A DNA stretch of 20,717 nucleotides from positions 1 to 20,717 of IMG/VR virus record IMGVR_UViG_3300042907_001258. One strand, given 5' to 3'. Source of the DNA: a virus. Of this stretch, positions 79 to 20,717 are shown piece after piece (the stretch's first letter is position 1; each line of letters begins with the position of its first letter). The position numbers were made by a program, and so were the translations under genes. Under the pieces are notes generated by a model. The model was not told the origin of the DNA, did not search any database, and was given only the letters and a program-made list of their open reading frames with translations.

Positions 79-912
79 CTAAATGAGGGCCGGGGTCTTT
101 GGCGTCTTCGTCCGAAGTTGTGACCAATCGCAATAGGCCTGCTCGAAGAGGGAAGGGGAGCGATGTCCTAGGTGAAGCCTGCCGGCTCCGGCCTGGGACA
201 TTTCGCAGTGAGTCGCCCCGCTGCGCCGCAGAAACTTCGATGTGCCGCCAATGCCGACTCCGTCTATCAGATCCCTCATGAGCCGCTGTGCCTGCCGCCG
301 CTTGCAGACCCAGCCGAGGATCGTGCCGTCGGTAGAGCCGGCGATCATCTGGTCGACCGCAGACAGGCAGGCCGGCGTGAGCGACCTAGTCATCGGGTCG
401 CCCGTCTTGGATTGCGTCCAGGCGAGAGAGTCGCCGTCGATGTGCTCAGACCGGAACGACATCACGTCGCCGAAGCGAGCCCCGCACTCGTAGGCCAAGA
501 GCACCCAGCACCGCAGGAAGAGGCCGAGGTCGGCACCGCTGCGGAGCCGGTGGCCTTCGTGGGCCTTGGTCGCCTCCACCAGCGAGCGGAGCTGCTCGAT
601 CGTCCAGGCCTTCGTAGGGCTTTTGCGGCTCTTGATCCGCATCACGCCACGGGGGGCCTCGGCAATCATCCCGGTCTCATAGCCCCAGCGGTAGAGCGTG
701 AGCAGGATCGTCCGCTCGGCCCTGACCGTGGTCGAGGCCTTCTCCGCAGAGATGGTGCGGAGGTAGGCGTTGACCCGCTCGACGCTCACCTCGCCGCACC
801 TGGCCGAGATCCGCATCACGTTCTCGCCGTAGTAGCGGGAGACAATGCGGTCGGCCAGGTACGCCGTGGCGACACGTCCGAACGTTTGGATAGTTGGCTT
901 TTTGATCTTCAC
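79..912 (-). CDS. Tyrosine recombinase/integrase family protein (first copy)
   Basis: This is a 277-aa tyrosine recombinase, cutting and rejoining DNA through a phosphotyrosine. Visible catalytic positions are Arg146 (YECGARFGDV), Lys169 (SKTG), Lys226-x-x-Arg229 (KFLRRSGAT), His250 (LGH) and Tyr260 (AYCDW). An N-terminal SAM-like core-binding region is followed by the catalytic domain from about residue 100. The usual HxxR box reads KxxR. I chose the GTG at 912 rather than the ATG at 996: it overlaps the upstream stop as GTGA and has AGGGCAGGAG 8 nt upstream, and the extra 28 residues are low-complexity Arg-rich sequence. It sits at the distal end of the early operon, far from the tRNA-derived attachment site, so it may not be the main integrase. 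A role in excision, multimer resolution or a second integration site is possible. Confidence 0.85.
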   Translation of the reverse strand: MKIKKPTIQTFGRVATAYLADRIVSRYYGENVMRISARCGEVSVERVNAYLRTISAEKASTTVRAERTILLTLYRWGYETGMIAEAPRGVMRIKSRKSPTKAWTIEQLRSLVEATKAHEGHRLRSGADLGLFLRCWVLLAYECGARFGDVMSFRSEHIDGDSLAWTQSKTGDPMTRSLTPACLSAVDQMIAGSTDGTILGWVCKRRQAQRLMRDLIDGVGIGGTSKFLRRSGATHCEMSQAGAGRLHLGHRSPSLFEQAYCDWSQLRTKTPKTPALI

Positions 913-1124
913 GAGATCGACTCCTGCCCTACGTTGCTGTGGCCTTCGTGGCGATACCGAACACGATCCCTGCCGTTGATCTCGACGACCAGGCACCGAT
1001 AAAGGTGCAGCCGGTCGCCGTGCGGCAGCCTGAGAAACTCCGGAAACCAGTCGACGCCGTGGGCCTTGTAGGCCGCCCCGTCGAGAGGCCCGCCGACAAA
1101 TCGAGCTTTAGAAGGGGATGTCAT
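909..1124 (-). CDS. Small conserved phage protein with GGPLDG motif
   Basis: The 71-aa protein has the motif FVGGPLDG near its N-terminus (residues 9-16) and ends in a basic, Tyr/His-containing stretch (DRVRYRHEGH). Short proteins with N-terminal GGPLDG are common in phages and have no assigned function. GGGAGG lies 9 nt before the ATG at 1124. It overlaps the DUF669 gene by 17 nt upstream and the recombinase by 4 nt (GTGA) downstream, so translation is probably coupled. No membrane segment or Cys cluster is seen. Confidence 0.75.
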   Translation of the reverse strand: MTSPSKARFVGGPLDGAAYKAHGVDWFPEFLRLPHGDRLHLYRCLVVEINGRDRVRYRHEGHSNVGQESIS

Positions 1125-1956: not shown

Positions 1957-2854
1957 TGGCCGGCTCCTCGCTCGGAGCGCGGGCGTCGATCTGGTCGGTG
2001 AGCGTCGCCCACTGTGCCGAGGTCAGGGTGCCGTCCGACAGGAGCTGGTCGACACGCTTGCGACACTTGGCAAGGGCGGCGTCGTCGTTGGCATCGGCGA
2101 TCGCCTTGGCGGCCTTCGTCATGACGGCCGGCTCTGCCGCCGGCGTGCCGCCGAAGATCCCGGCGAGGCGGTCGATCGACATCGGCATCTCTTCAGGCAG
2201 GCCGAAGCGATTCTTGGCGTCCCAGGCCGCAGCCCGCTCGGCGTACATGACGCGCTCTTTGCCCCCGCTGGCCTTGATCCGGCCGTCGGAGCCCTCGACG
2301 AGCTTGAGCCGGTAGTTGCAGAAGAGGAGGAGGTCGCACCACTCTCTCAACAACGGGGCCACCTGCTTCGTGAGCTTGAGCTCGTAGCGGTCATAGCCGT
2401 CGGTCTGGTCGGGCGGGCTGGTCCGCTGCACCTTGGAATGAGCGACGAAAACCACATTGATCCCGCGGGCGATCAGTTGGTCGGCGATCGCCAGAAACTT
2501 CGACACCCGCTCTTGAACGTGGATGTAGCCCTTGCCGAATCCAAAGTCCTCGATCGATTTCTTCCCGGCCTGGCGGACGATCTGCTCGATCATGATCCGC
2601 TCCATCCAGTCGGCGGAATCAATCACGATCGTCTCGAAGCCCTGAGCGTCCCTCACGAGCTCGTGCATGGTCGACTCAAGCGTGATCCAGTCGCTGCAGA
2701 TAACACGGGCGCAGTCCAGATGCTTTGAGCCGTCCTCGGTGTCGAGGATCAGCGGCGACGGAAACTGCGACGCCATGGTCGATTTGCCGATGCCCTCGGT
2801 GCCGTACATCACGACCCGAGCGGCCGACTTTTGCTTTCCTCTGACGATCTTCAT
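1949..2854 (-). CDS. Sak4-like RecA-fold ATPase (phage recombinase, AAA_24 type)
   Basis: The 301-aa protein has a Walker A motif GTEGIGKST (residues 18-26) after a short beta strand, an aspartate-bearing strand LILDTEDG, and a Walker B strand TIVIDSADW (75-83). This layout is typical of phage Sak4/AAA_24 proteins, minimal RecA-like ATPases that promote single-strand annealing during phage recombination. The C-terminal 70 residues are Ala-rich and helical. AAGGAG lies 7 nt before the ATG, which overlaps the csrA stop as ATGA. The SSB-like DUF669 protein is encoded just downstream, the expected partner. Annotation as a generic phage nucleotide-binding protein is the conservative alternative. 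Confidence 0.82.
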   Translation of the reverse strand: MKIVRGKQKSAARVVMYGTEGIGKSTMASQFPSPLILDTEDGSKHLDCARVICSDWITLESTMHELVRDAQGFETIVIDSADWMERIMIEQIVRQAGKKSIEDFGFGKGYIHVQERVSKFLAIADQLIARGINVVFVAHSKVQRTSPPDQTDGYDRYELKLTKQVAPLLREWCDLLLFCNYRLKLVEGSDGRIKASGGKERVMYAERAAAWDAKNRFGLPEEMPMSIDRLAGIFGGTPAAEPAVMTKAAKAIADANDDAALAKCRKRVDQLLSDGTLTSAQWATLTDQIDARAPSEEPANA

Positions 2855-3078
2855 GCCTGATCTCCTTTTTTCCTCTTCTCGTCCCGGCGGATCGCCGTCA
2901 GCACTTCGCGACGGTAGATGTCGACCTCGTCGGGGGCGTCGATTCCGAGCCTCACCTTGTTTCCCTCGATAGCCACGAGCACGATCTCGATGCCGTCGTC
3001 GTGCCAGTCCTTGCAGGCGGCGATAGCATCACCGGGGATCACGATCGACTGACCTGCTGTCCGACTCAAAACGAGCAT
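2851..3078 (-). CDS. csrA: Phage-encoded CsrA-family RNA-binding regulator
   Basis: The 75-aa protein begins MLVLSRTAGQSIVI and carries GNKVRLGIDAPDEVDIYRRE (residues 39-58), the hallmark CsrA/RsmA segment. It includes the Arg-Glu pair (57-58) corresponding to the RNA-contacting R44 region of bacterial CsrA. CsrA dimers bind GGA in mRNA leaders and block or stabilise translation. The segment between the first two strands (about residues 16-30, DAIAACKDWHDDGIE) is longer than in ordinary CsrA. GGAGG lies 4 nt upstream of the ATG at 3078. It is the first member of a coupled cassette with Sak4 and SSB-like genes. A role in switching host or phage translation is inferred. Confidence 0.9.
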   Translation of the reverse strand: MLVLSRTAGQSIVIPGDAIAACKDWHDDGIEIVLVAIEGNKVRLGIDAPDEVDIYRREVLTAIRRDEKRKKGDQA

Positions 3079-4553: not shown

Positions 4554-5498
4554 ATGTACCGAAGAAACGGCCCGACGACCCTGTCGGCCTACGTCAAGGA
4601 ATACGGTCTTTTTCACCCTTGCAGGGTGGAGACGCTCCGGCAGTATCAGATCTCAGTCGACCTATTCGAGCGGTGGGCCGGTGGGCCGATCGCACTTGAC
4701 CAACTCGACGCCGCCAGCGTCTCGGAGTGGATCCGCGACTACGCTGCCAGCGGGATCGCCCCCAGCACCGTCCGATCCAAGAGGAGCCACATCCTTATCA
4801 TGTGGCGGGCCGCAGCCGACGAGGGCCTCTGCGAGCTGCCGACCCGACGGGTCCGCCCGGTGCGAGTGCCGTGGATCGCCCCGACCTGCTGGACTCGCGA
4901 CGAGGTGCAGCGGCTTGTAGACGCCTGCTCCAGGCTGAAACGGTGGCACAAGTGCGGTATCCGACGCTCCGAGTGGTGGGCGCTCGCCGTCCGGGTCGCA
5001 TGGGATACCGGGCTCCGCTGGGAAGACCAGGTCGCCCGCCTCCGGATCGACCAGATCACGCCCGACGGGATCGTCGCCATGCCGCAATCGAAGACCGGCA
5101 GGGTCGTCGTCTGTAGGCTCTCTGAAGCCACCCTAGAGGCATTGCGGCTTTCGGTGGCCGATCACCCTCGGACGCTCGTAACGCCTTGGGGGGCCAGCCA
5201 CGAGACGTTTTCCAAGCAGTTAAAGCGTTTGGCCAGGATGGCAGGCATCCGGCCAGGCACATGGAAATGGGTCCGCAGGGCCTCGGCCACCGATGTCGAG
5301 ATTCAGTCGCCACGAGGAGCCTCGGAGCACCTCGGTCATACGCCCGGCTCGATGATTGCCGAAAGAAGCTACATCGACCCAGCGATTGTGGGCGCAAACC
5401 GGCTGCGGTCAGCCCCTCGCCCCCTCTCCCTTAATACCCCCCCCCACTTTGCCAAAGTGTCCAGTGAGTTTCTCAGGCAGGACAGGTCGGCTGGCTAG
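4554..5498 (+). CDS. int: Tyrosine recombinase, probable phage integrase
   Basis: The 314-aa protein has an N-terminal core-binding domain (about 8-95; LSAYVKEYGLF, IAPSTVRSKRSHILIMWRAA) and a catalytic domain. Visible catalytic positions are Arg155 (DTGLRWED), Lys180 (SKTG), Lys238-x-x-Arg241 (KWVRRASAT), His262 (LGH) and Tyr273 (RSYIDP). As in the recombinase at 79-912, the usual HxxR box is KxxR. The gene starts 160-225 nt from the tRNA-derived core and runs away from it, the standard int-attP layout, so it is the best candidate for site-specific integration. No strong ribosome-binding site is seen before the ATG. The C-terminal 40 residues after the Tyr are low-complexity and contain a C9 tract. 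Confidence 0.88.
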   Translation: MYRRNGPTTLSAYVKEYGLFHPCRVETLRQYQISVDLFERWAGGPIALDQLDAASVSEWIRDYAASGIAPSTVRSKRSHILIMWRAAADEGLCELPTRRVRPVRVPWIAPTCWTRDEVQRLVDACSRLKRWHKCGIRRSEWWALAVRVAWDTGLRWEDQVARLRIDQITPDGIVAMPQSKTGRVVVCRLSEATLEALRLSVADHPRTLVTPWGASHETFSKQLKRLARMAGIRPGTWKWVRRASATDVEIQSPRGASEHLGHTPGSMIAERSYIDPAIVGANRLRSAPRPLSLNTPPHFAKVSSEFLRQDRSAG

Positions 5499-6159: not shown

Positions 6160-6294
6160 GTGAACGGATTAAATTGGTCGCAGGCGTTGCAGGCGTTGGC
6201 GTTGGTCAAGATCGGGCAGGAGTTGGGCAGCGACACTCGGCTCGCCCATGCCGTGCATGACGTGATCGAGCTCCTGCTCGCCTTCACGCGGTAG
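6160..6294 (+). CDS. Small hypothetical protein (44 aa, GTG start)
   Basis: A GTG at 6160 is preceded by AAGGAGG with 6-nt spacing and opens a 44-codon frame ending at a TAG (6292-6294). The protein is a helical peptide, MNGLNWSQALQALALVKIGQ, followed by ELGSDTRLAHAVHDVIELLL and AFTR. It is the last gene of the plus-strand block and overlaps the convergent minus-strand gene's 3' end by 11 nt. The frame and ribosome-binding site support it; no family is recognised. Confidence 0.6.
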   Translation: MNGLNWSQALQALALVKIGQELGSDTRLAHAVHDVIELLLAFTR

Positions 6295-6685
6295 GCCGCT
6301 GCCGCACCTTAAAGATGATCTTCCGCAGGCCGATCCGCGCCGCCGCATCGAAAAACCACAGGTTCGCAAACTCGACCACGACCGCCCGCAGCACCAGGTC
6401 GAGGGCGGCTTGCTCGCTGGGCTCGCAGCCCCAGCGGGCCTCGATCTGCTCCCGCACCCTGGCCGTGATCACCGGGATCGCGTCGAGCACCTGCCCGCCG
6501 GCGGATTTGCTGTCGAGCTTGCGGGCGAGCTCTGCCATGTGCCGCTCCGGCCACTGGCGGCAGACCTCCTCGACGATCACGTCGCAGGTGTGGCCGAGCT
6601 GCTCGGCAGGGTAGCCGATCGTCCCGCGAATCGCATCGCGGACCTCTCGCAGCGTGAGCGTGTCGAGAGCGTCGCCCACCGTCAC
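6284..6685 (-). CDS. Hypothetical protein (133 aa), distal end of late operon
   Basis: A mostly helical, soluble 133-aa protein, starting from GTG at 6685, which overlaps the upstream stop as GTGA. Segments include LTLREVRDAIRGTIGYPAEQ, a Trp/Arg region (CRQWPERHMAELARKL), and a hydrophobic helix (LVLRAVVVEFANLWFFDAAA). No recognised motif. It is the last gene of the long leftward late operon and meets the plus-strand block tail to tail. Confidence 0.7.
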   Translation of the reverse strand: MTVGDALDTLTLREVRDAIRGTIGYPAEQLGHTCDVIVEEVCRQWPERHMAELARKLDSKSAGGQVLDAIPVITARVREQIEARWGCEPSEQAALDLVLRAVVVEFANLWFFDAAARIGLRKIIFKVRQRPTA

Positions 6686-7005
6686 CTCCCGCCCTTAGGC
6701 GCGGCCGGTGAAACTGTCGCAGGCGACGCTCCCGGCACGCACTTGCCATCTGGGCAGCCAGCCGCACCACAAGGGCAGCGAGTGCGATGCCCGTCGCCAT
6801 GGACGATCCAGCCGGTGCCGTTGCAGTCTTGGCATTTGCCGGGTGTTGGCTTCGGGGCCGGCGTCGGCGACGGTGCTCCATCAACGGCCATGCTCGCCCG
6901 TGCCGCCGAGACCGCCGCTGCGGCCCGTGGGTGCTCCAGGCTGGCGGCGACAGGGTCAGCCGACAGCCAGGCGAGGAGCCAGAGCAGGAGGTCGTAGAGG
7001 CCCAT
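6682..7005 (-). CDS. Membrane-anchored protein with DnaJ-like Cys-rich motif
   Basis: The 107-aa protein starts with a hydrophobic segment (MGLYDLLLWLLAWLSADPVA), then an Ala-rich and Pro-rich linker (GAPSPTPAPKPTPGK). A Cys cluster follows, with CQDCNGTG (CxxCxGxG, as in DnaJ zinc fingers), then CPC, then CPDGKC. It probably sits in or across the membrane with a zinc- or disulfide-bound head. Spacing to the upstream gene is 2 nt. It belongs to the run of anchored small proteins beside the papain-like peptidase. Function is unknown. Confidence 0.7.
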   Translation of the reverse strand: MGLYDLLLWLLAWLSADPVAASLEHPRAAAAVSAARASMAVDGAPSPTPAPKPTPGKCQDCNGTGWIVHGDGHRTRCPCGAAGCPDGKCVPGASPATVSPAAPKGGR

Positions 7006-7007
7006 GG

Positions 7008-7265
7008 CTAGAAACTCCTGCCGTGGTCGAGCAGGGGGAATCCGTCGTCGCCGATCCGCTGTTGCACGAGCTGCTCATCCGGTGGCGGCTCGACGACCAG
7101 GGCGATCCAGAGGAGATTCTTGGCGGCCTTGGCGAGCCAGCTCAAAACCGGCCGCTCCGGAGCCGGCGTCGGGTTGACGGGCGACGCTGGCGACGACGAG
7201 AGCCAATAGCCGGCGGCCATGCACAAAAGGCAGACGATTGCGAGCTGGCGGGGCGTGAGCAACAT
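7008..7265 (-). CDS. Small membrane or signal-peptide protein (85 aa)
   Basis: Starting at ATG 7265, the protein is MLLTPRQLAIVCLLCMAAGY and then a Ser/Pro-rich linker (SSSPASPVNPTPAPERP). The N-terminus is a membrane anchor or signal; the LLC could act as a lipobox but is not ideal. A second hydrophobic stretch (WLAKAAKNLLWIALVV) and an acidic tail follow. The longer frame to 7376 overlaps the peptidase gene and has no anchor-like start, so I rejected it. The start lies 8 nt after the peptidase stop. Confidence 0.65.
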   Translation of the reverse strand: MLLTPRQLAIVCLLCMAAGYWLSSSPASPVNPTPAPERPVLSWLAKAAKNLLWIALVVEPPPDEQLVQQRIGDDGFPLLDHGRSF

Positions 7266-7273
7266 GAGAGACC

Positions 7274-8434
7274 TCAAGGGGCTATCTGATAATCGAGAAA
7301 CTGATTTGTTCGCGGGAGCCTGGTGAGCGTGTCGATGGCTGGCATTAGCCAGTTGCCGTGGTGGAGGTCTTTCCACTTCCAGCCGTCAACGCGGCCGACG
7401 GCCCAGCTATCGTCCTGGGCGAGGATCCGCTCCATCACCGCCCGACGGCACCAGAAACTCCCGGCAGGCTGGTCGGCCGGATAGCGGCCTTCGTAGCGCA
7501 GGTAGGTCGGTCCCCAACTATTCAAAATCAAGGCGGCGTCGACCGGATTCTTCTCTTCGGGCGGCGCGTTCTTGGCGAAGCGAATTCCCACGACCGACAT
7601 CTGGTGCATCCAAGTCCCAGACGCTTCGCAGAGGCCGGCAGGCGAGGCCAGAGCCGTCGATGTAAATCCCTGCGAGCTGGCGATCGTGCAGGGGAAACCG
7701 GCCGTGATCGCGGCGACCAGTTCTTCCCACGTCTTCACGGCGACAATGTGCTTGCATGGGTGCTGCTTGGCCGTGGCGTCGAGCTTGCCGCCGTCGCCCT
7801 GGCCGCCGTTGCCGTACGCTCCCCAGTCTTTCTCGACCGTGGCGTTGTAGGTCGTGAGGTTGAGGTCGCCGTAGGGCTGGCGATAGATCACGCCGAAGTC
7901 TCGCAGCCAGCGAGCGGCAGCGCCGCCGTAGGAGCCATCGCTCCACCCGCCGATTGGACGGGATCCGTCGTAGGGCTTGCCGCCGTTGCGGGTAATTTCC
8001 ACGCGGGCTCCGCCGTAGATGCTTTCGGTAGCCGGCATGAGCGGAGGCTCGGCCAACTCGCCGAGATCCCACGAGACCGATTCGGCGCAAAAAACCGCGT
8101 GCATGGCCCCCCAGGCGACGCACGATCCATTTAACTGCTTGCCGACGACGAAAGGCTTTCCGTACTTGGCCCGGTGTGCCTTGTCCATTGCACGGTAGAG
8201 AAACGTGTCGACCTCAGACGCTTTCCGCATCGCCTCCGGTGCCGCCTGGGCGAAGTAGCGATCGTTGCCTAGCTCGTCGAGGAATTGCTTGTTGCCTGCC
8301 GGGTTGGGTGTATACCCAAACTGCGAGACCGCCGGCGCGTGCCGCTGCATGACGGCGGCGTAGACCGCTGCAAAGAGCAGGATCGCAGCGCCAACAAACT
8401 GCCAGGATCGGATTTCGTCAACGGGTCGCTTCAC
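7274..8434 (-). CDS. Membrane-anchored papain-like (C1 family) cysteine peptidase
   Basis: The 386-aa protein has an N-terminal membrane segment (about residues 11-29, WQFVGAAILLFAAVYAAVM), then a C1-type peptidase domain. The catalytic set is visible: Gln100 and Cys105 in KQLNGSCVAWG, His277 in WMHQMSVVGI, Asn305 in LILNSWGPTY. Cys-His-Asn order and the NSWG box are characteristic of papain-fold peptidases. GTG at 8434 was chosen because GGGAGG lies 7 nt upstream and it overlaps the previous gene by 17 nt; the extension to 8581 is Arg/Ser-rich shadow. It is probably displayed on the outer face of the cytoplasmic membrane. It may serve lysis, envelope remodelling or host-protein processing; none is shown. 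Confidence 0.85.
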   Translation of the reverse strand: MKRPVDEIRSWQFVGAAILLFAAVYAAVMQRHAPAVSQFGYTPNPAGNKQFLDELGNDRYFAQAAPEAMRKASEVDTFLYRAMDKAHRAKYGKPFVVGKQLNGSCVAWGAMHAVFCAESVSWDLGELAEPPLMPATESIYGGARVEITRNGGKPYDGSRPIGGWSDGSYGGAAARWLRDFGVIYRQPYGDLNLTTYNATVEKDWGAYGNGGQGDGGKLDATAKQHPCKHIVAVKTWEELVAAITAGFPCTIASSQGFTSTALASPAGLCEASGTWMHQMSVVGIRFAKNAPPEEKNPVDAALILNSWGPTYLRYEGRYPADQPAGSFWCRRAVMERILAQDDSWAVGRVDGWKWKDLHHGNWLMPAIDTLTRLPRTNQFLDYQIAP

Positions 8435-8879
8435 CGGCGGCCCTCCCGATCTCGCGGTAGGCAGCCGCCCAGGCCGACCGCTGCTCAGGTCCGACCGGGC
8501 CGCCCGACGTGCCGACGGCCTTTTCGAGATACGCTTGGATAGCGTCTCGCACCCGTGGCTGTCGCTCGCCGATGCTCTCACCTCGGCATCGCAGCACCCG
8601 TGCTCTGGTCCTCAACTCGTCGAAGGCGACGCCGCTCTTGTAGAAGGGCTCGGCCTGCATGGCGTCGTATTCGATCTCTGAGGCCAGCTCCTCGGCGAAG
8701 GCTGCGAGCGTGGCAGCGTCGGCGGCTGCCGTTGGACCGACAAACTTGCCGCGCAAGACCAGACCGTCGGCGGGGCCTGGTGCTGGCGTCGGGATCTGCT
8801 GGCGGTCGCCCACCAGCCAGGCCAAGAGGCCGGCGATCACCATCGCAGCGGCGAGCGTGTAGCGGGTCCTGTCGGTCAT
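8418..8879 (-). CDS. Membrane-anchored hypothetical protein (153 aa)
   Basis: It starts MTDRTRYTLAAAMVIAGLLA, a single N-terminal membrane segment, followed by a Pro-rich linker (QIPTPAPGPADG) and a charged helical domain to the end. ATG at 8879 overlaps the upstream stop as ATGA. The 250-aa frame to 9170 is an Arg/Pro-rich shadow before this start. The topology (anchor, Pro linker, helical domain) resembles an inner-membrane spanin component, but no spanin partner is identified. It lies directly upstream of and overlaps the peptidase gene. Confidence 0.7.
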   Translation of the reverse strand: MTDRTRYTLAAAMVIAGLLAWLVGDRQQIPTPAPGPADGLVLRGKFVGPTAAADAATLAAFAEELASEIEYDAMQAEPFYKSGVAFDELRTRARVLRCRGESIGERQPRVRDAIQAYLEKAVGTSGGPVGPEQRSAWAAAYREIGRAAGEATR

Positions 8880-9127
8880 GGGTGGTCGCTCCCCGCCACG
8901 AGGGCGAGCGTCAACGTGTCGATGGCTTTCTTCGCGCCGTCGTCGAGCTTCTCGGTTTGGATCAGCCGGAGGCGGACGTGGGCGAGGTCGGCGATCGCCG
9001 ATTGATAGGTCGGCGTCAGGTGCGGCGGGGCCGGGGCCGGGCCGAGGGCGGGGGCCGCCTGCCGAGCCAGCCGGGGGCCGAAGAGGAGACCCGCAGCACC
9101 GAGGATTCCGAAGATGAGATAGGTCAT
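8876..9127 (-). CDS. Small membrane-anchored protein (83 aa)
   Basis: It starts MTYLIFGILGAAGLLFGPRL, an N-terminal hydrophobic helix, then a Pro/Ala linker (ALGPAPAPPHLTPTY) and a helical C-terminal region (VRLRLIQTEKLDDGAKKAID). ATG at 9127 overlaps the upstream stop as ATGA, and its own stop overlaps the next ATG in the same way. The longer frame to 9232 was rejected for its shadow-like sequence. It is one of the coupled run of anchored proteins. No family is recognised. Confidence 0.7.
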   Translation of the reverse strand: MTYLIFGILGAAGLLFGPRLARQAAPALGPAPAPPHLTPTYQSAIADLAHVRLRLIQTEKLDDGAKKAIDTLTLALVAGSDHP

Positions 9128-9501
9128 GCGTGGGCTTTCCGGACCAGTGGCAAGAGGCTCTCGATCGCACCGCCGGCGATCAGTAGGAGGAGTTGGCGGG
9201 CGGCCGGCTTGAGGATGATCCAGACGGGCCACGCAAGCGACGGAATCGCCTTGTCGGCGAGACCGTCAAACAGCAGGCCGACGGCGTTGATCACAAACTC
9301 TTTCCGCTCGGCACCATCGACCGGGATTGAGTCGGCTGCGTCGATGGCGATCTTCATCAGAGCCATCAGCAGCTCGCCAAACTCGGCGAGCGTGATGCCG
9401 TTTATGGCCTTGACCTTCGCCACGTTCACAAACGCCCGCACCTTTTCGGCGAGCGTCAACAGGTCATTGGCGGCGAGGATCGGTGCGGAGGAGATCATCA
9501 T
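9124..9501 (-). CDS. Hydrophobic helical protein, possibly holin-like
   Basis: The 125-aa protein has a helical N-terminal half (LAANDLLTLAEKVRAFVNVA) and two hydrophobic segments toward the C-terminus (IPSLAWPVWIILKP and QLLLLIAGGAIESLLPL), ending in RKAHA. A small protein with C-terminal hydrophobic helices beside a peptidase and several anchored proteins fits a holin, but the sequence does not match a family I can name. Its ATG at 9501 overlaps the upstream stop as ATGA. A second ATG follows immediately at 9498. Confidence 0.6.
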   Translation of the reverse strand: MMISSAPILAANDLLTLAEKVRAFVNVAKVKAINGITLAEFGELLMALMKIAIDAADSIPVDGAERKEFVINAVGLLFDGLADKAIPSLAWPVWIILKPAARQLLLLIAGGAIESLLPLVRKAHA

Positions 9502-9959
9502 GCTTTCACCCCTACGAGATAGATTTCCACGTCGGCGGCGCTTGCCCCGGCGTTTTGGATCGTGAGCGTCGAGCCGGCCCAGCCGGTCGCCGGCCTAGTC
9601 ACATAGAGAACGCCTTCGGGGCCGAGGGCTGCCGTGACGAGCGAGCCGAGGGCCACCGTGACCGAGGTCGTGGTCGAGAGATTGCGGACGAGGATCAACT
9701 TCTGAGCGGCGAGATTGAGCGTGCCGGTGCCGCCGAAGGCCTTGAGCGGCAGCGTTGCCATCGTGAGCGTCGTCGTGGTCGAGGCGGCGACCGTGACGAC
9801 ATCTTTGAAATAGCCGTTTGCCTGGTTGGCAGCCGTGCCGTCGGCGAAGGAAAACGTATAGGCGGCCGTGGCAGAGTCGGTCACGTCGGTCGTATTCAGG
9901 CTGTCGACCCAGCGGGGCTGGATGCGGAGCGAGCCGGTAAGCGTAAAACTAGCTGCCAC
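9498..9959 (-). CDS. Beta-rich structural protein, paralog B
   Basis: The 153-aa protein is rich in Thr, Ser, Ala and Val with alternating beta-strand patterns (LTGSLRIQPRW, KLILVRNLSTTTSVTVALGS) and few charges. It ends in ADVEIYLVGVKA. It shares layout and local motifs with the protein encoded immediately upstream: LTG near the start, a YTFSFADG/YSIADG turn, an LxLVRNLST/LRVIRVVNTST strand, a central glycine-proline turn, and IQN...EIYLVG versus ISN...ELYLIG. It starts with GTG at 9959, overlapping the upstream gene by 11 nt. It is probably a virion surface or tail-associated protein. Confidence 0.72.
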   Translation of the reverse strand: MAASFTLTGSLRIQPRWVDSLNTTDVTDSATAAYTFSFADGTAANQANGYFKDVVTVAASTTTTLTMATLPLKAFGGTGTLNLAAQKLILVRNLSTTTSVTVALGSLVTAALGPEGVLYVTRPATGWAGSTLTIQNAGASAADVEIYLVGVKA

Positions 9960-10482
9960 TGCCGGAGCCTCCTGCCGCTGTCGAGGTGCCGATGAGGTAG
10001 AGCTCGTAGGTCGCCGAGGCTGCGTTGGGATTCGAGATCCGGATCACGCTGTTGTCGGCCGTCACCTCCCAGGCGTCGGTCTGGTTGACCGCGAACCACT
10101 CGGATCCCGGCCCGACCTCGGCGGCGTAGACGGCAGTCGGGCGACCGGGGTCGACGCCGACCAGGATCCGGCGACCGGCGACCGTGGAGGTGTTGACGAC
10201 CCGGATCACCCGGAGCTGCCGAAACACAAACGGCACCGTCACGCCGAGAGCCTGTTGCGTGAGGGCCAGCAGGTCGAACGATTCGACGGAGTTGGCCGGG
10301 ATCGTGCGGGAGTCGGCGAAGACGAGGTCAGCCTCGCCCGGCCCGTCGCCGTCTGCGATCGAGTAGCTGCCGGTCTGGGTCTTGCGGTTGGTGATCGACC
10401 CGACCTCTTGCGTGTCGGTTCGCGCCCAGGTGAGCGTCGTCCGCACGGTGCCGGTCAGCGAGTCGGTGAGCGTGTCGGCCAT
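9949..10482 (-). CDS. Beta-rich structural protein, paralog A
   Basis: The 177-aa protein starts MADTLTDSLTGTVRTTLTWA and ends in TYELYLIGTSTAAGGSGSGS, a Gly/Ser tail. The body is beta-rich with a YSIADGDGPGEADLVF segment and LRVIRVVNTSTVAGRRILVG. It resembles the next gene's product along its length but has longer loops, suggesting tandem duplication. The ATG at 10482 shares a base with the upstream stop (TGATG). Such proteins in late phage modules are often tail or capsid decoration components; that role is inferred. Confidence 0.72.
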   Translation of the reverse strand: MADTLTDSLTGTVRTTLTWARTDTQEVGSITNRKTQTGSYSIADGDGPGEADLVFADSRTIPANSVESFDLLALTQQALGVTVPFVFRQLRVIRVVNTSTVAGRRILVGVDPGRPTAVYAAEVGPGSEWFAVNQTDAWEVTADNSVIRISNPNAASATYELYLIGTSTAAGGSGSGS

Positions 10483-13054: not shown

Positions 13055-13999
13055 CTAGGCTGATTTTCCAGCCGGTTGCCAGTTGGCAAATCCCGGTTTT
13101 TCTCGGGAGTTGGCGAGGATTTCGGACAATTTCGCAGCGGCGTCGGGCGTGAAGCGACGGGCAACGATGCCTTCGAGCACCTTGCCGGAGGCGATCTCAG
13201 TCTTCCCGTTGCAGCAATGTTGGAAGATCAACTCGCCGTCGGAGTCGTGCTGGCAGATCGCTGGATGCCTATAGGCAGGGTTGCGCGGCGGCATGTGGTA
13301 ACGGGCTCCGAGGAGGTGCCAAGCGAGGAGCCAGCAATCCTTGTCGCCGTAGACAACCTTGTAGGTGTGGTCGCTCCACTCATTGAGGAAGACGGCCACC
13401 TCGCAGGCGGCAATATGCCGGCGGCGATTGATGAGGAGCTGCCCGCTCTCGAAGGGTCGAGCCGTCGGCACGGGTTCCAGGCCCACGAGTCGCCAGGCGG
13501 CCTCCGGCACCCACTGCCCACGCTCTCTGGTCGGCGGCAGATCGGCCCAAAACATCGCACCCGCTCGCTGGTAGGCCGTGTCGTGAAACAGGTAGGCCGG
13601 GTCTTTGGCCGGCACGTTGTCGGCGTCGAGGAAGAGCACCTCGGTAAAGCCGCTGTGCCGCACCGCAAACGCCTTAAGCCACCAGCCAGCGTCACGGGCT
13701 CCGAGCGGCCTTGTGCGGGGCGTGAGGCCGACCGAGTCGCTCGACACGAGTCGCACGCCGTCGAGCCCTGTGAAGGCTGCGGCGAGGTCTGGGGGCATCT
13801 CACCGGGCAGGTGCCAGATCTCGATCGGGAGGCGGCAGCCGAGGCCGCGGAGCACGGTGACGAGGTGCCAGGCGAGCCGGCCGTAGAGGTCGCCGCCGGC
13901 GGCGATCACGATCCCTTGCTGGGCGCGAACGGGCGGCAGGAAGAAGGGCAGGTCGGCGACCTTGGCTGCGAGGGCCGAGCGGAACAAGGCGGGATCCAT
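13055..13999 (-). CDS. GT-A type glycosyltransferase (mannosyltransferase-like)
   Basis: The 314-aa protein has a Rossmann-like start (GIVIAAGGDLYGRLAWHLVT), then LFLDADNVPAKDP with a DxD motif at Asp125/Asp127 for metal and nucleotide-sugar binding. FESGQLLINRRRHIAA (183-198) and VYGDKDCWLLAWHLLG (216-231) follow. These resemble the alpha-mannosyltransferase (MNN1-like) family and GT8-like enzymes. GGAGG lies 5 nt before the ATG at 13999. In a late phage module, it could glycosylate virion proteins or modify host surface sugars to block superinfection. The substrate is unknown. Its last codons hold the third copy of the 14-bp palindrome. Confidence 0.75.
   Translation of the reverse strand: MDPALFRSALAAKVADLPFFLPPVRAQQGIVIAAGGDLYGRLAWHLVTVLRGLGCRLPIEIWHLPGEMPPDLAAAFTGLDGVRLVSSDSVGLTPRTRPLGARDAGWWLKAFAVRHSGFTEVLFLDADNVPAKDPAYLFHDTAYQRAGAMFWADLPPTRERGQWVPEAAWRLVGLEPVPTARPFESGQLLINRRRHIAACEVAVFLNEWSDHTYKVVYGDKDCWLLAWHLLGARYHMPPRNPAYRHPAICQHDSDGELIFQHCCNGKTEIASGKVLEGIVARRFTPDAAAKLSEILANSREKPGFANWQPAGKSA
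13073..13089. repeat. Third copy of the TTGCCAACTGGCAA palindrome
   Basis: The minus strand reads TTGCCAACTGGCAACCG, a 17-nt exact match to the plus-strand sequence at 6107-6123. Both lie at the 3' end of a gene, in different reading frames, so the match is not explained by a shared protein motif. Confidence 0.55.
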
Positions 14000-17748: not shown

Positions 17749-18657
17749 TTAGGTCGTCCCTATGCCCAGCGAGGCGAAACTTCCGTCGCGGTAGACCTTA
17801 TTGATGTAGACGTATTTTGGCCGCTTGAGCGCCACCGATGCGGATCCGTCGACCGCGTCCTCGTAGCGCACCCAGAGGTATTCGTGGCCTTTTTTATCAA
17901 TGCCGGTAATGCTGCCGATGGTCTCGTTGGTCACGTTTGACGAGGCGACAAACTTATAGGAGAGGCTCCAAGGCCCGTCGCCTTTCTCTTCGTCCCATTC
18001 GTGGGAGCCAGAGGCTCCGAGGAAGAGAACCTCGCCGGCGGCGAAGGAGCGGAAGGCGGCGTTGTTGACCGTGCCGGTCAGGGCCGCGACCGTCTTGATG
18101 TAATCGTTTGTGACGTATGTGCTCGGCACGTCATACGTCTCGGTCCAGGTGAGCTGCGGAACGACCACGTCGACGCCCGCGACGCTGTCGCCGTCGACGC
18201 CGATGGCGCTGTCCATGCTAGGGGCTGACGGTGGAAAGCGTCGCTCGGTGCCGGTCGTGGTCGTCGTGGATCCTGAGACCGTGACCGTGCCGCCCTTGGC
18301 CTGAGTGATGTGCTGGGTGCCGCCCGACGTGTCGAACGAACGGGATCGCTTGAGCGGGTCCGGTTGATCGTCGTCGTCCGACCCGTCTTTGGCATAGTTG
18401 ATCTGCACCTGCCAGGCGTCGTCGCCTAGGTACGAGACGCTGTAGCTCTCGGCGAGGAGCTGGACGCTTGTGCCGGGATACTGCCAGCCGCGCAGGCTTG
18501 ACGAGACGTAGGCGTTTATGTCGGCGTGGAGCGCCACGTCGTCGGTTGTGCCGAAGACCTTGTAGCTCTTGACGTAAGAGCTAGACGCCTTCTTTCCGAG
18601 GCGGACGATTGTCGCGGAGCGACTGTCGGAGTCTTCGATCCAGGTGAACGTAGGCAT
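17749..18657 (-). CDS. Tail-region structural protein after the tape measure (302 aa)
   Basis: This protein is encoded directly after the tape measure, sharing one base (TAATG). It starts MPTFTWIEDSDSRSATIVRL and has beta-rich halves separated by an acidic/Thr linker (DGSDDDDQPDP, VSGSTTTTTGTERR). A C-terminal domain contains WSLSYKFVASSNVTNETIGS. The position matches distal-tail or baseplate proteins of siphoviruses, but I do not see a diagnostic motif. Low Cys content and no membrane segment agree with a virion protein. Confidence 0.7.
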   Translation of the reverse strand: MPTFTWIEDSDSRSATIVRLGKKASSSYVKSYKVFGTTDDVALHADINAYVSSSLRGWQYPGTSVQLLAESYSVSYLGDDAWQVQINYAKDGSDDDDQPDPLKRSRSFDTSGGTQHITQAKGGTVTVSGSTTTTTGTERRFPPSAPSMDSAIGVDGDSVAGVDVVVPQLTWTETYDVPSTYVTNDYIKTVAALTGTVNNAAFRSFAAGEVLFLGASGSHEWDEEKGDGPWSLSYKFVASSNVTNETIGSITGIDKKGHEYLWVRYEDAVDGSASVALKRPKYVYINKVYRDGSFASLGIGTT

Positions 18658-20717
18658 TAGGCTGCTACTGCTCCGTCGTCGGTGATTCCGCGGGTGTTTT
18701 CTTCGATCTTCTTTTGCACGTCGAGCGACTGCTGCGCGAGGCTTGAGCCAAAGCCCATGCCGCCGAGGCCGGCGGAGGAGAAGGTGCCGGCGACCTCTGC
18801 CTGACTCTCCCTAGCTGCGGCAGCAGCGTCGGCCAAAGCCTTAGGATCGACCTCCTTCTTCCCGGCGGCGATCGTGGCACCGTCGCCCATGATCCGCTCT
18901 GTGGCATCGTCAAAGGCGGTCGAGAGTTTGTCTTGCTGCTCGCTGGTGAGGCGTCCGGCGGCCGTGAGCGTATGGAATTCATCCGACAGCTCTCGCAGGC
19001 TGTCGAGCGTGCCGGCCTTGGCGACCAGGCCGCCGAGATCCTCGGCCTGTTGGTTCATGGCTCGCTTTTCACGGGAGCCTCGGCCGAGGGCCGTCACCTT
19101 GCCTTCGGCATCGACCACGGCCTGCCGTCGCTTGTCGCGAAGCAGCTCGTTGCCACGCCTACGCTCGGCGATGGTGTTGCGGGCGTCGGCATTGCGTCGC
19201 ACCTCCCGAGCCCCGGAGGCGAGCGTGTCCATCTTGTTATCAGAGTCGGCCTTTGCGACTCGGCCGGAAATGCCACCGCCTGCCAACTCGCGCTTTCTTG
19301 CGCGAGCGCTCATATCTGAGTCAACCTTTTCGTTTTCTTCCTTTAGGTTAAACCCGAGAACAACTAACTCCTGGATGAAATTCCACGATTTGCGAATCCC
19401 TGCCTCAAGCGTGTCCCATGAGACTAGGACGGCGTTGATCACGTTGTCGAAGGCACCCATCAGGTAGGCTCCGAACGTGCGGAAGGAGTTGCCGACGCCC
19501 GTCCACATTCCATCCCAGATGTTTTGGACGTTTGTCGAAATAAGCGTGAACACGTTTTGGAGCACAGTCGCCCATGGGTCGACGGCGTTCTGGAAGTTTT
19601 CGACGCCGCGGAGCCAGCCGGCGTAGAGGCCCGCCCAAAGGGCATCCATGGCACCAGACAGGTCGCCGGCGACGATGGCGTCGTAGATCGCCCCGAACGT
19701 GGTCGAGGCGATCGCCGATAGGCCCGACAGCGATCCCGTCGCCGCCGCGATCGCCACGCCCAGGGCCGCCACGCCGGCGACGATGAGCACAACCGGCGAG
19801 AGCACGACGCCCATGGCTGCGCTGACGAGCGTCAAGGCCGCGCCGATGCCGGCGATCGCCAGGCCGGCGGCCGTGAAGATGGCGACGCCCTTGGTAAACG
19901 AGATTACGAGGGCTTCGTTTTCCTTGACGAAGGCCGTCACGGCCGTCGCCACCTGGCCGATAAAGTCGACGAGTTTCTGCAGGCCTGGTGCGAGGGCATC
20001 GCCGATCGCTAGGGCCGTGCCTTCGATCGCCGAGAGCGTGATCCGCATCGAGCCGCCGAGGCCAGCGTCCATTTCCTTGGCCGTCTTAGCGGCCGTGCCT
20101 TCGGCTGTCCGCAGCACGGCGGCCAGGTCGGCGACGCCGCCGGCAGACTTGGAGAGCACGTTGGCCGAGGTGATTCCCAACAGCCCGAAGGCTTCGGCCA
20201 TCCGCTTCGTCCGCTCTGCGACCGGCATATTTGCCGTTACGTCGTTGATCTCGTCGAGGATCGTGATCAGCGGCTTGAGGTTGCCGGCGGCGTCTTGGTT
20301 GGAGATCCCAAAGAGCTCTTGCAGCTTCTCGCCGCTGGCTGCCGAGATCACGCCGAGGCGTCGCAGGGCAGTTCCCGCCTCGCTGCCCTGGATGCCGACG
20401 TTTCCGAGCACGCCGAGGATGGCTGCCGTATCTTCCAGCGACAGGCCCAGTTCCTTGGCGACCGGGCCAGCGTATTTCAGCGACTCGCCGAGGCCCTCGA
20501 CCGTGTTGAACGTCTTGTTAGCCGTGGCCGTGAGCACGTCGGCCGCCCTGGTAGCCTCGGTGGCACCGAGGCCAAACTGCCGCAGCGTCGCCGCCATGAT
20601 GCCTGCCGAGAGGGCAGCGTCGGTGCCGGTGGCCCGCGAAAGGTCGAGCACCGCCGCAGTCATGTTCTCGATCTCTTTCGGGCTGAAGCCTGCCCGGCCG
20701 AGCTCGGTCATGAGGTT
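18657..20717 (-). CDS. Tail tape-measure protein, TP901 family (partial, 5' end missing)
   Basis: At least 686 residues are visible and the frame is open at the window edge, so the N-terminus is missing. The visible start holds the TP901/PhageMin_Tail core (LSRATGTDAALSAGIMAATL, TFNTVEGLGESLKYAGPVAK, LGLSLEDTAAILGVLGNVGI, QGSEAGTALRRLG). A long hydrophobic region (about 276-326 of the visible part), a charged helical region and a C-terminal end, LDVQKKIEENTRG, follow. The protein sets tail length and helps DNA entry. The late genes continue upstream beyond the window. The in-frame ATG at 20711 is not the real start. Confidence 0.9.
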   Translation of the reverse strand, partial: NLMTELGRAGFSPKEIENMTAAVLDLSRATGTDAALSAGIMAATLRQFGLGATEATRAADVLTATANKTFNTVEGLGESLKYAGPVAKELGLSLEDTAAILGVLGNVGIQGSEAGTALRRLGVISAASGEKLQELFGISNQDAAGNLKPLITILDEINDVTANMPVAERTKRMAEAFGLLGITSANVLSKSAGGVADLAAVLRTAEGTAAKTAKEMDAGLGGSMRITLSAIEGTALAIGDALAPGLQKLVDFIGQVATAVTAFVKENEALVISFTKGVAIFTAAGLAIAGIGAALTLVSAAMGVVLSPVVLIVAGVAALGVAIAAATGSLSGLSAIASTTFGAIYDAIVAGDLSGAMDALWAGLYAGWLRGVENFQNAVDPWATVLQNVFTLISTNVQNIWDGMWTGVGNSFRTFGAYLMGAFDNVINAVLVSWDTLEAGIRKSWNFIQELVVLGFNLKEENEKVDSDMSARARKRELAGGGISGRVAKADSDNKMDTLASGAREVRRNADARNTIAERRRGNELLRDKRRQAVVDAEGKVTALGRGSREKRAMNQQAEDLGGLVAKAGTLDSLRELSDEFHTLTAAGRLTSEQQDKLSTAFDDATERIMGDGATIAAGKKEVDPKALADAAAAARESQAEVAGTFSSAGLGGMGFGSSLAQQSLDVQKKIEENTRGITDDGAVAA

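Follow-up and report, generated by a model that had tools for sequence, protein, structure and literature searches.

A conserved gene block around a predicted membrane-anchored papain-like protease, a candidate proteolytic lysis module of planctomycete phages

Introduction

Lysis by tailed phages is usually framed around peptidoglycan. The S-R-Rz/Rz1 cassette of phage lambda is a compact late block which, after a holin-like start, combines a single hydrolytic enzyme with small membrane-anchored products, and the cassette described here shares this plan. Like the lambda lysis genes, it stands upstream of the terminase in some relatives, but it differs in the lack of a known peptidoglycan hydrolase and, in the window, of an o-spanin lipobox; its enzyme, here named C1, is a predicted papain-like protease. 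In SAR endolysins an N-terminal hydrophobic segment exports the lytic enzyme. C1 shares such a segment, whereas its catalytic domain is that of a putative protease, and membrane release is no part of the likeness. PeiW and PeiP, the pseudomurein endoisopeptidases of methanogen viruses, are cysteine peptidases that open a non-murein wall; C1 would correspond to them as a putative viral cysteine peptidase with a possible action on such a wall, but family and wall are different. With peptidase family C1 (papain; xylellain 3ois, cathepsin B) our protein shares the predicted fold and the order Gln/Cys/His/Asn, but it lacks a significant PF00112 match, is encoded by phages, is apparently membrane-anchored at its N-terminus and is linked to partner genes. 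The parts thus resemble known kinds, namely a lysis cassette and a papain-like protease.

For a peptidoglycan that is disputed or reduced, the Planctomycetes, with their Cys-rich wall proteins, are the classic example. The literature searched yielded no paper on host lysis by phages of planctomycetes. Cys-rich YTV wall proteins and the absence of peptidoglycan genes in most Planctomycetales have been described (PMC8567305), and murABCDEFGJ and mraY are dispensable in Planctopirus limnophila (PMC10632474).

Results and Discussion

Architecture of the cassette

The window, i.e., the whole 20,717-base fragment that was analysed (IMG/VR virus record IMGVR_UViG_3300042907_001258, positions 1 to 20,717), carries the majority of its genes on the minus strand. 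Read along this strand, the loci run from the tape measure over tail genes, a glycosyltransferase, SprT-like and phosphoesterase genes and a pair of paralogs into a cassette of six genes (9501-6682, minus strand) in the order holin-like, g83, g153, C1, g85 and g107.

18657-20711, minus strand: tape measure gene (Pfam PhageMin_Tail)
9124..9501, minus strand: holin-like protein, 125 aa, cassette gene 1
8876..9127, minus strand: g83, N-terminal hydrophobic segment, Pro/Ala linker and small helical domain
8418..8879, minus strand: g153, N-terminal membrane anchor, PTPAPGP linker and conserved domain
7274..8434, minus strand: C1, 386 aa, GTG start, predicted membrane-anchored papain-like cysteine peptidase
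7008..7265, minus strand: g85, anchor, Pro linker, second hydrophobic segment and acidic tail DHGR(S/G)(F/W)
6682..7005, minus strand: g107, hydrophobic N-terminus, Pro linker, CxxC..GDGH..C cluster and CPDGKC tail
6284..6685, minus strand: g133, 133 aa, a looser downstream member with no N-terminal anchor

The five consecutive ORFs of the original prediction (107, 85, 386, 153, and 83 aa) are present at their proposed place, and the holin-like ORF lies directly upstream of them, as proposed. Overlaps of 4 bp occur between the holin-like gene and g83, g83 and g153, and g107 and g133, g153 overlaps C1 by 17 bp, and gaps of 8 and 2 bp separate C1 from g85 and g85 from g107, respectively. Due to these junctions, with overlaps of 4-17 bp or gaps of 2-8 bp, the cassette genes are probably translationally coupled.

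Further genes of the window were recorded in passing. Tandem paralogs of 177 and 153 aa (9498-10482, minus strand; phrog_22694, function not assigned) are situated immediately ahead of the cassette, and a Mannosyl_trans3-type glycosyltransferase gene (13055-13999, minus strand), past the tail genes, is present in 14 out of 86 loci. A CsrA-like protein of 75 aa is encoded at 2851-3078 (minus strand), with a CsrA Pfam match in the near-identical relative G001. Two ORFs are integrase-like, 79-996 (minus strand) and 4554-5498 (plus strand), of which Pfam confirms the latter only; two proteins of G001 match the phrog_1 integrase.

C1 is a predicted papain-like protease

The four active-site residues proposed for C1 are all present, invariant in 78 out of 78 relatives, and kept in the order Gln-Cys-His-Asn.

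8135-8137, minus strand: codon of Gln100
8120..8122, minus strand: codon of the putative catalytic Cys105
7604..7606, minus strand: codon of the putative catalytic His277, invariant, aligned with the cathepsin L2 His region by a sub-threshold match
7520..7522, minus strand: codon of the putative catalytic Asn305 (N-S-W-G motif), invariant, opposite the cathepsin L2 NSWG in a sub-threshold match

C1 falls outside the Pfam, PDB-sequence and INPHARED sets. Nothing significant was obtained for C1 against Pfam, by phmmer against PDB sequences or by tblastn against INPHARED phages. A PF00112 search of its own record gave no match, and across the family PF00112 hit one of 38 members (E 0.08, below the Pfam cut-off); a profile search reached cathepsin L2 at a sub-threshold E of 0.13. 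Structure prediction, which had been suggested as a check, returned a papain/cathepsin fold: the AlphaFold2 model (pLDDT 80, pTM 0.80) matched xylellain 3ois (Foldseek E 2e-9, TM 0.66 on target) and many cathepsins including procathepsin B, as well as C1 peptidases of phages and giant viruses in BFVD. Taken together, model, structural matches and invariant residues lend good support to a papain-like fold in which the active site is intact, and proteolytic activity may be expected from the model. The N-terminal anchor is missing in some relatives (L086, L155, and L386), which counts against the lysis reading proposed below.

NlpC/P60 and CHAP enzymes belong to the same papain superfamily, and mycobacteriophage Lysin A appears among the weaker Foldseek matches. 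C1 could hence act as an endolysin of an unconventional type on the peptide cross-links in residual peptidoglycan, and only this enzyme would then set the cassette apart from an ordinary one. The best structural matches, xylellain and the cathepsins, are however true proteases, and with the host and gene-exchange data given below we regard this reading as unlikely.

Small cassette proteins and the holin-like protein

The products of all five genes g107, g85, C1, g153, and g83 are hydrophobic at their start, with best 17-residue KD values of 1.5-2.4. The single N-terminal segment originally assigned to each is thus borne out as a hydrophobic start, but g85 has a second segment and that of g107 is weak. 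The Pro/Ala linker described for four of the five was found in g83, g153, g85, and g107. In all 20 sequences of g83 the positive charges follow the hydrophobic stretch, from which a C-terminus in the cytoplasm is predicted, unlike for C1, g153, and g85. A display of all five proteins outside is therefore too simple, and the arrangement with all of them facing outward was dropped. Lipoprotein-type signals occur in distant relatives of g153 and g107, g153 having a lipobox-like form in L386, which supports export of their domains. Export and topology of the cassette proteins are what we infer from the charge pattern and these signals.

By inspection, lipoboxes are absent from the window proteins, lipobox-like signals being confined to the distant relatives, and an Rz/Rz1 spanin identity of the small proteins was therefore rejected. 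Against PHROG and Pfam the small proteins gave noise-level matches only. The DnaJ-like Cys cluster noted in g107 exists as a motif but not as a domain: g107 of the window has neither a thioredoxin fold nor a DnaJ CR domain in Pfam, and the DnaJ_CXXCXGXG match of a relative had an E of 0.46. Where the window has g107, L084 and its relative L402 encode a significant Thioredoxin_7 domain after a signal-peptide-like start; L083 has a slightly weaker thioredoxin-like domain, and a Thioredoxin match occurs also among the L397/L399 proteins. In the majority of the other loci, the g107 slot carries the CxxC..GDGH..C cluster or Cys residues in a similar arrangement.

The main hydrophobic region of the holin-like protein is its C-terminal third (AWPVWIILKPAARQLLLLIAGGAIESLLPLVR). 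The label fits a hydrophobic, conserved protein at the head of the block, but neither Pfam nor PHROG gave a match; a holin identity is suggested by hydrophobicity and position.

Recurrence and linkage

C1 relatives were found in at least 592 stretches of IMG/VR. Recurrence of the neighbourhood in other phages, a check named beforehand, was confirmed by the presence of the cassette in hundreds of related phage contigs. Linkage was counted on non-redundant loci found via C1 alone, with loci of sufficient flanking DNA as denominators; since the loci share ancestry, the counts are not numbers of independent events. Upstream of C1, g153 occurs in 90 out of 91 and the holin-like gene in 76 out of 81 loci; downstream, g85 occurs in 82 out of 87 and g107 in 71 out of 76. 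The association is looser for g133 (near C1 in 45/71 loci), and g83 was detected in 26/86. In the reverse direction, C1 adjoins g153 in 44 out of 44 loci and is next to the holin-like gene in 35 out of 37 loci with room. As it extends across unrelated backbones, the co-occurrence of g153 and C1 is more than chance, and g153 is a predicted partner of C1.

Genomic position

The location of the block differs among at least four phage backbones. In the window group it comes after the tail genes. In L081 (a Pirellulales MAG) it is located upstream of Terminase_4/TerL_ATPase, in L084/L149 (a Blastopirellula marina prophage) upstream of a Terminase_6N protein, and in L151 ahead of a terminase of the GpA type. 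In L154 it is flanked by an S78 prohead protease gene on one side and the capsid gene on the other. The terminase-adjacent site corresponds, by analogy, to the lysis position of lambda-type phages. One ordered block at different sites of unrelated backbones indicates a portable, self-contained module, standing upstream of the terminase or after the tail genes. Such lysis-type positions would suit an endolysin as well.

Position also bears on two other roles. An anchored protease might cleave a receptor or an incoming phage protein, in superinfection exclusion or envelope remodelling, as the membrane anchor, the many small anchored partners and the temperate nature of the phages (integrase) could suggest. 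However, the block runs collinear with late genes, its direct neighbours are genes for the terminase, a prohead protease or the capsid, and its linkage to the holin-like gene is near-universal; we consider this role improbable, and surface display to exclude other phages, as originally suggested, gained no support. In several backbones, C1 lies beside genes of the tail or head, and it might process tail or head proteins or travel in the virion for entry. Against such an assembly function, head-maturation proteases are encoded separately (phrog_133 in G001; S78 in L154 and L282), and the N-terminal anchor, Pro linkers and putatively exported partners point to the envelope, so that it appears very improbable.

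Search for a conventional lysin

Four relatives were scanned against Pfam, G001 (40.8 kb) and G013 (44.0 kb) with codon-scored gene sets, G019 (41.8 kb) and G007 (38.3 kb) with a hand-picked ORF set. Terminase, portal and capsid families were found, and variously tail, integrase and replication families. No peptidoglycan hydrolase occurred among the best 25 of 26 and the best 25 of 28 families of these scans; Transgly_assoc, matched in the G019/G007 set, we take for a family of small membrane proteins rather than of transglycosylases. Searches with single families were negative for Amidase_2 in the records of 27 relatives and for SLT, Peptidase_M15_3, M23, Phage_lysozyme, and NLPC_P60 in 18 records each. 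A known peptidoglycan hydrolase domain, as expected of a canonical endolysin, was thus found neither in the window nor in the relatives scanned, which upholds the original observation in four relatives of 38-44 kb and in six-family searches of 18-27 relatives, Pfam being blind to new hydrolase types and the relatives' contigs possibly being incomplete.

Hosts and their peptidoglycan genes

Genome matches fall mainly into the Planctomycetota (Blastopirellula marina and others). In even samples, matches occur in 11 of 392 Planctomycetota and 1 of 296 Bacteroidota genomes, the single Bacteroidota match being the sampling centre itself and the Planctomycetota centre being also among the 11. From the hosts of its relatives, the phage of the window probably infects Planctomycetota as well. 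A lone chromosomal C1 relative in Mucilaginibacter pankratovii (Bacteroidota; L086, 9863-10789) has no cassette partners. A cassette fragment (L085) occurs in a MAG labelled Alphaproteobacteria, where misbinning or a broader host range is possible.

In seven hosts with closer cassette versions (G028 to G031, G154, G366, and G372), MurG gave only weak partial matches below the family cut-off and the PBP transpeptidase (PF00905) is absent; some of these genomes are MAGs and may be incomplete, G028, G154, G366, and G372 measuring 6.4-7.1 Mb. The lack of full-length MurG and PBPs in these seven hosts argues against C1 as an endolysin. In favour of that reading, peptidoglycan sacculi and lysozyme sensitivity were described in several Planctomycetes (PMC4432640), so that peptidoglycan is possibly a target. 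Both MurG and the PBP transpeptidase are present in G332 and G422, which carry a divergent C1 cassette with no peptidoglycan hydrolase detected in it; these two loosen the correlation with the host.

An alternative cassette with a trypsin-type protease

Among holin-like loci with downstream room, C1 is missing only in L236, L238, and L282, the first two being near-identical in sequence. Here, the holin-like gene is followed by genes for p141 (membrane or secreted), p288 (288 aa) and a trypsin protein.

L282:4650-7566: alternative cassette, holin-like gene, p141, p288 and a Cys cluster plus trypsin-type protease

The trypsin protein of L282 contains a Trypsin_2 domain (E 1e-19); its N-terminus is hydrophobic, and it further has a CxxC cluster and ends in a CPDGRC tail that resembles the one of g107. 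This cassette is widespread, with 80 p288 loci (L300-L379); p141 is present in 78 of them, the trypsin protein in 77 and the holin-like gene in 68. In L282 it is situated behind the portal and S78 protease genes, and in L154 the C1 block stands behind the S78 protease gene. Phages of the L282 type thus keep the holin-like gene and swap the rest of the C1 block for p141, p288 and the trypsin protein. A trypsin-type protease is not expected to cut peptidoglycan peptides, which speaks further against an endolysin role of C1.

In p288, which takes the slot of C1, Q76, C82, and H234 are invariant, which hinted at a papain-like enzyme; this is not claimed. Similarity to the C1 profile is absent, the AF2 model is poor (pLDDT 46) and its fold search was empty. 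A 'GDSGG' match in L169 was discarded as a chance reading frame.

Proposed function

Position, linkage to the holin-like gene, hosts without PBPs and the exchange for another protease cassette lead us to favour, with some reservation, the reading that the cassette is a lysis block of planctomycete phages which would act by proteolysis and not by peptidoglycan hydrolysis. Of the protease-based lysis module first proposed, recurrence and the absence of a detectable peptidoglycan hydrolase in relatives have held; lysis itself is what we infer. Late in infection, the holin-like protein would damage the inner membrane. C1 would be tethered through its N-terminal helix, expose its domain to the periplasm and be kept in place by g153/g85; after membrane damage it would become active and cut a protein layer of the envelope, while g107 may handle disulfides of a Cys-rich layer or keep Cys105 reduced. 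The sequences show the block, the predicted fold, the conserved residues, the linkage, the hosts and the exchange; lysis, substrate, holin activity and the redox role of g107 are putative. It is tempting to speculate, though we hold this fuller picture only tentatively, that a disulfide-linked protein wall is attacked by an anchored papain-like (or trypsin-type) protease together with an exported thiol-handling protein, in place of an endolysin, in phages whose hosts lack peptidoglycan machinery.

Conclusions

If true, lysis by a protease module would reveal the way in which phages exit planctomycete cells, would add a genetic line of evidence on the components that keep the envelope of these bacteria together and could provide enzymes for opening the cells. 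With the cassette in hundreds of environmental contigs and in prophages of culturable hosts such as Blastopirellula marina, the proposal is testable.
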